Shown in pieces: positions 35,185-56,269 of a stretch of DNA of 64,000 nucleotides. The position numbers were made by a program, and so were the translations under genes. Origin of the DNA: Candidatus Thorarchaeota archaeon (lineage in GTDB: Archaea > Asgardarchaeota > Thorarchaeia > Thorarchaeales > Thorarchaeaceae). The stretch spans positions 49,117-113,116 of the forward strand of contig SDNP01000003.1 in the NCBI GenBank assembly GCA_004524445.1, in the 5' to 3' direction. The notes under the pieces are model-generated. The model did not search any database. It was not told the DNA's origin and was given only the letters and a program-made list of their open reading frames with translations. How positions within the stretch are numbered: position 1 is the first letter of the stretch; the number at the start of each line of letters is the position of its first letter.

Positions 35185-35332
35185 GCCCTATGACTCTCAG
35201 CACGGGATGATGACAGCAGTAGAGGGGAAAATACGCCTCATCAGCGTGATGACCGATAAACCGCAATCTGACCGTACTTTGTGAAATCAGAGAGGGAATG
35301 TATTCTGCTACAATATCTGGAGGTTTGACAAT

Positions 35333-35743
35333 CTGAGTCCTTTTCGATGCAATCATGATGGGTCATGTGATAGAGTCAGGCTGTGTTGCATAGATACAGA
35401 GATGACTTTGACGATGGCAGATATTAACCGAATCAGAAGATTGGGATATGATCCTGATGACTTCATGAAGATTGCAGAAGACGGATTCGCTGAGCTTCGG
35501 AATATTGATGGTTGTTGTTACTTTTATGATGTTGAATCTGCAAGCTGCAAGGTTTATCAACACAGACCCGAGGGCTGCAGGTATTACCCGATTGTATATG
35601 ACATGGCTTTAGAGAAATGTGTTGTTGACAATGAGTGCCCGTCTGGCTCAACCATATCACAAGATGAGATTGATTCGATCTGTCTGGTGGTTAAGAGACT
35701 TGTAGAAACGTTAGTGAGTGAGGCAAGGAATGTTGAGAGATAG
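35333..35743 (+). CDS. YkgJ-family cysteine cluster protein, probable CTG start
   Basis: 136 residues if it starts at the CTG at 35333, which follows a strong GGAGGT (35319-35324) by 8 nt. The first conventional start is the ATG at 35402. That would delete the leading cysteines of the YkgJ motif, seen upstream in the same open frame as SPFRCNHDGSCDRVRLCC. The rest of the motif follows: GCCYFYD, ASCKVYQHRPEGCRYYP and KCVVDNECP. There is no ATG, GTG or TTG in frame between 35333 and 35402, and a TGA lies at 35282. YkgJ proteins bind zinc or Fe-S; function unknown. It overlaps the PHP gene by 14 bp. Confidence 0.78.
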   Translation: MSPFRCNHDGSCDRVRLCCIDTEMTLTMADINRIRRLGYDPDDFMKIAEDGFAELRNIDGCCYFYDVESASCKVYQHRPEGCRYYPIVYDMALEKCVVDNECPSGSTISQDEIDSICLVVKRLVETLVSEARNVER

Positions 35744-54900: not shown

Positions 54901-56022
54901 TCAGAAACTCTGTTTCTTTTCCTTCTTTTCAGCATACCAAGAACGGTTCTCCACGTCGTTCGATATCTCCCACGCGCGGGTCTGATAGAACTGTAGCGGA
55001 TGGAGAATGTATTCGCATAGTGGGTCGAAGGCAGCACCCAAGTAGACGGGGCATAGCGTATTTCCCTGCATCTTTTGACAGCTAGGAGGTGTGTACCCCT
55101 CTCCGCCCTTTGAGGCAATATGATGAACTTGGTATTTCGCTAGTTGACCACCACCAAAATCAGGAGCAGGCTGAAAAACGCTCAAGACCTCCTCCTCGGT
55201 CATACCGATTTTCAGCAGAAAGGCGGCGAGAGCGAATCTAGCCTCATGAGAGAGATTCTTCCCTTGGACCGAATCGGAATGCATCTGGGCCATGCAGGGT
55301 GGAAACGCAGAAACCATATTCTCAGTAATTTCGATAGGTCGCGTACTCCGAATCTTGCTTTTCAGCTCGCTCTCAATCCGTTGAATTTGCAGGGTCAAAT
55401 TGCTAGGCAGGCTCGGAATGTTGATGGAGCTATCAAGTATTAATTTTTTAAATTTCCCCGAGATTAATCGATTCAACTCGGACTGCTTTATTGCCAACCA
55501 CCCATCCTTGACATGTCTATTGACCAGTTTCCATTCGGCAGAATGAAATGAGGGGGCAACCTCGAGATAATTCTCAAATCTGATATCAAGGTCAAACGTT
55601 CGAATGTGATATGGTAACTTTGCCTTGTGGGTTCCCTCACCTATTGGTTTTATGCCCCAATCAAAGGAATCGCTGGCGAGACGGATAACAAAATCAGCTG
55701 GTTCTTTGCGCAAATGTTTGTTAACCATCTTTGACTCAGCTTCGGCTTGGTACATCTTCAATCGAGGATTGCCTATCTTTTCAGTCATTATTCTTGCAGT
55801 CTGATAGATTAGATGGTCGTACTCGTGATTCGTGTTGACTGTCTGAATCTCTTCCTGATCTAGGGCTGCTAAGACCCTGTTTGCTGCCTCCTCCACAACA
55901 TACTCTCCCTCTCGAGTTTCAATTCTCTCAATGAGCTCCTCTATGTCTTTTGCGATGTTTCTGGTGGCTAGTCTGGATTCTTTTGAGAACGGATATCTCA
56001 GAAGTTGGAGTCTTGTCGGCAG
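54901..56022 (-). CDS. priL: DNA primase large subunit PriL, probable CTG start
   Basis: 373 residues when started at CTG 56022. The conventional start is GTG 55896, which yields only 331 residues and truncates the family's N-terminal helix. The extra residues, read by me in frame, are LPTRLQLLRYPFSKESRLA..., and RYPF is a known PriL N-terminal feature. GAGGTG (56035-56030) lies 7 nt before the CTG and an in-frame stop lies just before it. The Fe-S domain cysteines are in AFPPCMAQMH, PPSCQKM, GNTLCPV and DPLCEYI. PriL with PriS makes RNA primers for replication. The catalytic small subunit is not in this window. Confidence 0.9.
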   Translation of the reverse strand: MPTRLQLLRYPFSKESRLATRNIAKDIEELIERIETREGEYVVEEAANRVLAALDQEEIQTVNTNHEYDHLIYQTARIMTEKIGNPRLKMYQAEAESKMVNKHLRKEPADFVIRLASDSFDWGIKPIGEGTHKAKLPYHIRTFDLDIRFENYLEVAPSFHSAEWKLVNRHVKDGWLAIKQSELNRLISGKFKKLILDSSINIPSLPSNLTLQIQRIESELKSKIRSTRPIEITENMVSAFPPCMAQMHSDSVQGKNLSHEARFALAAFLLKIGMTEEEVLSVFQPAPDFGGGQLAKYQVHHIASKGGEGYTPPSCQKMQGNTLCPVYLGAAFDPLCEYILHPLQFYQTRAWEISNDVENRSWYAEKKEKKQSF

Positions 56023-56068
56023 TTATTCACACCTCTTATCGATGACGGGTATCTCGCCACTTGAGTAT

Positions 56069-56269
56069 TTAGTTTTCAAAGGTAAGCTGGTAGCTGTCAT
56101 GACCTCTACCGTAGAAATGATTTCCGCATGAAGCACAACTGAATGTTCGAATACCACGAATTCGGCACCACTGTTCCAGTACTCTGTGAATTTTTTCGCT
56201 ACCAGACTTGGGGCACTTTAGCTCAGCATCATCATATGCCCATTGTGAATTATAGCAGTCAGGTGGCAT
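56069..56269 (-). CDS. Small zinc-ribbon protein
   Basis: 66 residues. C-terminal half has a zinc-binding layout: CPKSGSEKIHRV, EQWCRIRGIRT, SCASCGNHFYGRGHDSYQL. An earlier Cys at position 5 may not be a ligand. It is a likely real gene because its cysteines are regularly spaced and it fills the gap between priL and the methyltransferase on the same strand. It may be a small DNA/RNA-binding adaptor; no family recognised. Confidence 0.6.
   Translation of the reverse strand: MPPDCYNSQWAYDDAELKCPKSGSEKIHRVLEQWCRIRGIRTFSCASCGNHFYGRGHDSYQLTFEN

Follow-up and report, generated by a model that had tools for sequence, protein, structure and literature searches.

A CTG codon as the probable start of the primase large subunit gene in a Thorarchaeota genome, and the recurrence of CTG starts in its lineage

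Where does the large subunit of DNA primase (PriL) begin in a Thorarchaeota genome whose priL reading frame lacks a usual start codon ahead of its N-terminal segment? Standard gene callers do not use CUG starts, and in the window, by which we mean the whole 64,000-nucleotide stretch of DNA analysed, the standard ORF listing holds a single, 331-aa form of priL that starts at GTG 55896, although the frame is open from a CTG at 56022 down to the stop at 54901. A sequence-only reading of the window had proposed that the usual starts truncate the N-terminus of PriL and that the CTG is the probable start, with GAGGTG 7 nt upstream, a TAA before it and 42 following codons free of ATG, GTG and TTG; all of these positions proved correct, and the listing indeed offers only the shortened protein. 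The features concerned are as follows.

54901 to 56022, minus strand: priL, DNA primase large subunit, 373 aa, coordinates including the stop; PF04104 match at E=1.6e-26
56020 to 56022, minus strand: CTG, very probable start codon of priL; 34 of 41 relatives have ATG, TTG or GTG at the aligned position, and two more have CTG; an in-frame TAA adjoins it upstream
56023 to 56025, minus strand: in-frame TAA stop, which rules out any start farther upstream of the priL CTG
56030 to 56035, minus strand: Shine-Dalgarno GAGGTG, 7 nt upstream of the priL CTG; pairs with CACCTC of the genome's own 16S 3' end (duplex -9.7 kcal/mol)
55897 to 56022, minus strand: N-terminal 42 codons of priL (LPTRLQLLRYPFSKES...), missing from the standard annotation and conserved in relatives
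55894 to 55896, minus strand: GTG chosen by gene callers, internal Val43 of priL; the column holds mixed Val/Ile codons in 41 relatives
56069 to 56269, minus strand: small ORF of 66 aa upstream of priL, which stops 46 nt short of the priL CTG; weak zinc-ribbon match

The priL start region and its product

Read on the minus strand, the start region runs GATAA GAGGTG TGAATAA CTG CCG ACA AGA, the spacer TGAATAA occupying 56029-56023, and the 42 codons between CTG 56022 and GTG 55896 encode LPTRLQLLRYPF…. The own 16S rRNA gene terminates in CACCTCCT (the anti-Shine-Dalgarno, L038), and therefore GAGGTG can pair with it; a duplex as strong as this one lies upstream of ~1.4% of random window positions. 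Taken alone, the 42-codon open stretch is weak evidence, being expected by chance in about 13% of cases if codon frequencies are equal, and it is because of homology with relatives that the CTG start goes beyond chance. With regard to the small upstream ORF, relatives show a similar ORF end, DDY(R/Q)PTF*, ahead of their priL, and the two genes may form a conserved operon.

The identity of the product is well supported. The PF04104 match reaches 93.7 bits (cut-off 22.4), positions 6-214 of the family profile align with residues 4-208 of Saccharolobus PriL 5of3_B (E=4e-13), and the solved Saccharolobus structures matched by this profile comprise 5of3_B, 1zt2_B and 5ofn_B. The Fe-S cluster cysteines C243, C315, C324 and C336 do not vary across ten aligned orthologues, and the partner subunit PriS is encoded in the same genome (PF01896 at G000:C33:19823-20416). 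The segment containing RYPF, which had been called typical of PriL, occurs in practically every Thorarchaeota PriL, and [KR]YPF stands a few residues past an ATG or GTG in most of the other archaeal PriL recovered (Thermoplasmata, Methanomassiliicoccales, Thermoprotei and others).

This N-terminal segment also bears on the possibility that translation starts at GTG 55896, yielding a 331-aa PriL that would lack its first helices and leaving the homology upstream as decaying sequence. The standard ORF rule leads to that codon, and a 4-nt GGAG lies 8 nt upstream of it; however, residues 1-42 retain the invariant positions Y10, F12, S13, R17, A24, D26 and L30, and the NCBIfam PriL profile scores the 373-aa form at 201.5 bits and the 331-aa form at 190.7, all of these NCBIfam scores lying under the curated thresholds, which is not surprising in a divergent lineage. 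Moreover, the GTG column reads ATT 11, GTG 9, GTT 7, GTA 5, GTC 5, ATA 2 and ATC 2 in the 41 relatives, and thus is an ordinary aliphatic Val/Ile position and no start column. A start at GTG 55896 can be regarded as next to negligible.

The start column among relatives

Relatives of priL were gathered as 80 loci by means of an alignment query, a single query with the window protein having returned none, and every family relative for which the N-terminus of priL was recovered carries the segment. In 41 Thorarchaeota priL genes, the window included, the codon aligned with CTG 56022 is TTG in 15, ATG in 11, GTG in eight, CTG in three and another codon in four; in nearly all genomes it lies nine codons ahead of YPF, and the Leu codons of this column are CTG and TTG only. 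The three nearest orthologues have ATG exactly at the position of the window CTG (MSTRLQLLRYPF, MATRLQLLRYPF, MATELQLRRYPF), and GTG 55896 falls outside the start column. The comparison with orthologues that had been suggested as a check therefore finds the RYPF region conserved behind a normal start. On the position of the CTG, its homology, its Shine-Dalgarno site, its recurrence and the constraint on the codon itself, all of which are directly observed, we conclude that priL very probably starts at CTG 56022 and encodes a PriL of 373 aa, CTG being a minor but evolutionarily retained start in Thorarchaeota.

The priL of G003 (Thorarchaeota isolate A361) has no ATG, GTG or TTG before LRYPF and carries CTG in the start column behind GGAGGT (duplex -11.2 kcal/mol); G015 and G024, which are sisters of G003, have TTG there. 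In G064 the CTG has a Shine-Dalgarno site of -10.0, and an ATG without such a site follows four codons downstream. The mean Shine-Dalgarno energy is -10.3 kcal/mol for these three CTG-column genes (window, G003 and G064) as against -7.2 for the ATG priL. A CTG in the priL of genus g9 (L004, L006) is one residue off the column with a weak Shine-Dalgarno, and was excluded from the CTG count. As a separate observation, the priL of another Asgard genus (L049 = G055, L046 = G039) shows ATA/ATC ATT near its likely start, behind GGAG, which may be another near-cognate start.

The N-terminal segment might instead be translated by way of some other event, such as a frameshift from an overlapping GTG, initiation at another in-frame near-cognate codon, or a leaderless start. 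A short GTG-initiated frame (GTG AAT AAC TGC) does overlap the priL CTG, and codon 8 is a second in-frame CTG, but this codon has no Shine-Dalgarno (0.0 kcal/mol), the first CTG alone sits in the family-wide start column, and a frameshift would require an event of which there is no sign of conservation. Such routes are thus very improbable in comparison with initiation at CTG 56022.

CTG starts in other genes

The window comes from a MAG of 64 contigs, which alone represents its genus among the genomes searched, so that this one site, considered alone, could be an error of base calling or assembly, with a wrong first base in place of a true ATG, TTG or GTG; a single substitution would be enough, and ATG is what the nearest relatives carry there. 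Against this stand the CTG codons in the priL of G003, where there is no canonical alternative, and of G064, and, as described below, those at the start columns of a second window gene and of a gene family in 23 genomes; errors are not expected to converge on CTG behind strong Shine-Dalgarno sites. An error at this site is accordingly rated as improbable.

35333 to 35743, plus strand (35333-35740 without the stop): gene for a CxxCxxCC protein, PF03692, with an apparent CTG start; GGAGGT at 35319-35324, 8 nt upstream of the CTG

This second gene opens with CTG AGT CCT TTT. Its start column in 26 anchored relatives, the window gene counted, reads TTG 18, CTG 3, GTG 3 and ATG 2, again with CTG and TTG as the only Leu codons. 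The next canonical codon is ATG 35402, and a start there would lose 23 residues and with them all four motif cysteines.

The most extensive case is an AP-endonuclease-2-like gene (PF01261) on the same contig, outside the window (L075:1093-1932 = G000:C57:21093-21932). Its start column, anchored six codons before the GPAGYP motif, holds CTG in 23 of 36 genomes, ATG in nine, TTG in two and other codons in two, the CTG being spread over about ten genera while the flanking columns vary freely. The Leu codons of this column are NTG in 25/25, with no CTC, CTT, CTA or TTA; CTG and TTG make up 38% of the Leu codons in these genes, which gives a chance of about 2e-11 for independent draws, a figure that relatedness makes less extreme. 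Shine-Dalgarno sites are on average about equally strong at both kinds of start (-9.3 at CTG vs -9.1 at ATG). In about half of the rows a canonical codon, mostly GTG, is found three codons upstream of the CTG, within reach of the Shine-Dalgarno so that the two overlap, and is itself preceded by only a weak site; in L226 and L243 the Shine-Dalgarno is separated from the CTG by a stop, and therefore an upstream start is ruled out there. For both genes anchored counts replaced the automatic column picks, which had fallen on this third codon upstream in the AP-endonuclease-2-like gene and on an invariant internal Met in the CxxCxxCC gene. Since the AP-endonuclease-2-like CTG occurs in 23/36 genomes, with strong Shine-Dalgarno sites and NTG-only Leu codons, sequencing error is excluded as a general explanation. 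The CTG start proposed for priL is well supported, whereas its handling as a lone oddity is not, the gene being one case of a CTG-start class that recurs in the lineage.

For a wider search, orthologous ORFs were compared across three genomes: about 113 kb of the contig that holds the window, 339 kb from G003 and 400 kb from G015. Where a Shine-Dalgarno site had no canonical start within reach, CTG was enriched at functional spacing more than any other codon (16 placements, OR 3.2, p=1e-4, related genomes being treated as independent in these statistics). In a wider sample, extended by further stretches of G000 and G020 as well as by two other Asgard genomes, CTG again came top but more weakly (27 placements, OR 1.9, p=0.002 uncorrected for the 61 codons). 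The enrichment behind Shine-Dalgarno sites was absent within gene interiors, and the two other Asgard genomes showed none, with one case. After filtering to remove shadow ORFs, ortholog-defined start columns with a Shine-Dalgarno comprised ATG 88, TTG 50, GTG 26, CTG 5, ACG 3 and ATA 3, which suggests that CTG-started genes may amount to very roughly 1% in Thorarchaeota. Judged from the alignments, then, CTG interchanges with ATG, TTG and GTG at homologous positions of several genes and is the commonest start of one gene family.

Candidate ATA, ACG and ATC starts are not claimed, being too few or too ambiguous. Two G015 genes can be mentioned in this regard, g15|+|142334 and g15|-|223409, in which a possible ATA start, following GGAGGTGGA, and a possible ACG start, following AGGAGGAAGA, correspond to ATG or GTG of relatives in the alignments. 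Furthermore, a KsgA-like rRNA methyltransferase gene, an assignment read from sequence alone, has a CTG after AGGTGAT in G003 (C21, minus strand, g3|-|328157) and in G015 (g15|-|332606), and the first 29 codons of the G003 ORF include no canonical start.

Start strength, mechanism and known systems

At the priL CTG, the GAGGTG Shine-Dalgarno would position the 30S subunit and Met-tRNAi would read the near-cognate CUG by a first-position mismatch, tolerated like those of GUG and UUG, so that Met would be the first residue of PriL. This first residue, the relative efficiency of the start and any role in PriL dosage are what we infer from the arrangement. As for dosage, ATG makes up 30% of priL start columns (11/37 NTG) and 95% of those of priS, whose alignment of 40 rows (L097-L126, L286-L295), with the column picked automatically, reads ATG 37, TTG 2 and CTG 1 (Fisher p=2e-9 for 11/37 vs 37/39). 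PriL may therefore be translated less than PriS, which would amount to a possible translational control of the dosage of the primase subunits. We lean, with some reservation, towards the broader reading that CUG is a regular fourth start in Thorarchaeota, employed with a strong Shine-Dalgarno in about 1% of genes and long conserved in some, and that the weak NTG starts of priL hold PriL synthesis below that of PriS.

A 2020 review gives the start codons of archaea as AUG, GUG and UUG, with CUG not among them (PMC7531240), and our search of the open-access literature turned up no mention of Asgard CUG starts. In a survey of triplets of close genomes, Belinky et al. (2017) reconstructed about 69,000 ancestral starts and saw only 4 of them switch to CUG; the survey was built on annotations, which rarely allow CUG (PMC5622118). 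The Thorarchaeota cases resemble those rare starts in that CUG replaces AUG, GUG or UUG at homologous positions, but differ in that CTG persists in one family over about ten genera and also serves several other genes. They likewise resemble the GUG and UUG starts of archaea and bacteria, sharing a near-cognate NUG together with a Shine-Dalgarno, and here CTG swaps with TTG, GTG and ATG. In eukaryotes, CUG is considered the strongest near-cognate start (PMC11706245); eukaryotic CUG initiation uses scanning and context, whereas the Thorarchaeota CTG is accompanied by a strong Shine-Dalgarno, and an evolutionary link is not claimed. What is new here is CTG as a conserved choice within the known range of non-AUG initiation.

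The AUU start of infC in E. coli is a weak and regulatory start in an essential gene. The two cases are alike in the weak start of an essential gene, although for priL the evidence extends to a bias towards weak starts. In practical terms, gene callers limited to ATG, GTG and TTG would misplace such starts, as in priL, where 42 residues of an essential replication protein are lost, and some proteins of relatives are probably annotated too short. Moreover, the conservation of a CUG start in archaea closely related to eukaryotes offers a way to approach start-codon stringency (aIF1, Met-tRNAi) among the Asgard lineages, for which the AP-endonuclease-like gene provides a natural series of ATG and CTG starts.

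Some features of the translation RNAs were noted along the way. About half of the Rfam-matched tRNA loci of the window genome (L305, L311-L322, L324) went unrecognised by ARAGORN, suggesting that many of its tRNAs contain introns; among the first 30 tRNA loci ARAGORN called no Met-tRNA, about half giving no call, probably owing to introns. The 16S rRNA at L038:3100-3160, as well as in L137, L144, L154 and L155, carries an inserted hairpin, some 30-40 nt long, that separates helix 45 from the anti-Shine-Dalgarno CACCTCCT; most relatives lack this hairpin, which resembles a small intron or an expansion immediately ahead of the anti-Shine-Dalgarno. Finally, the 16S rRNA of G015 (L141) carries an insertion in the loop region of helix 45, after GTAGCGG, which is likely an intron.
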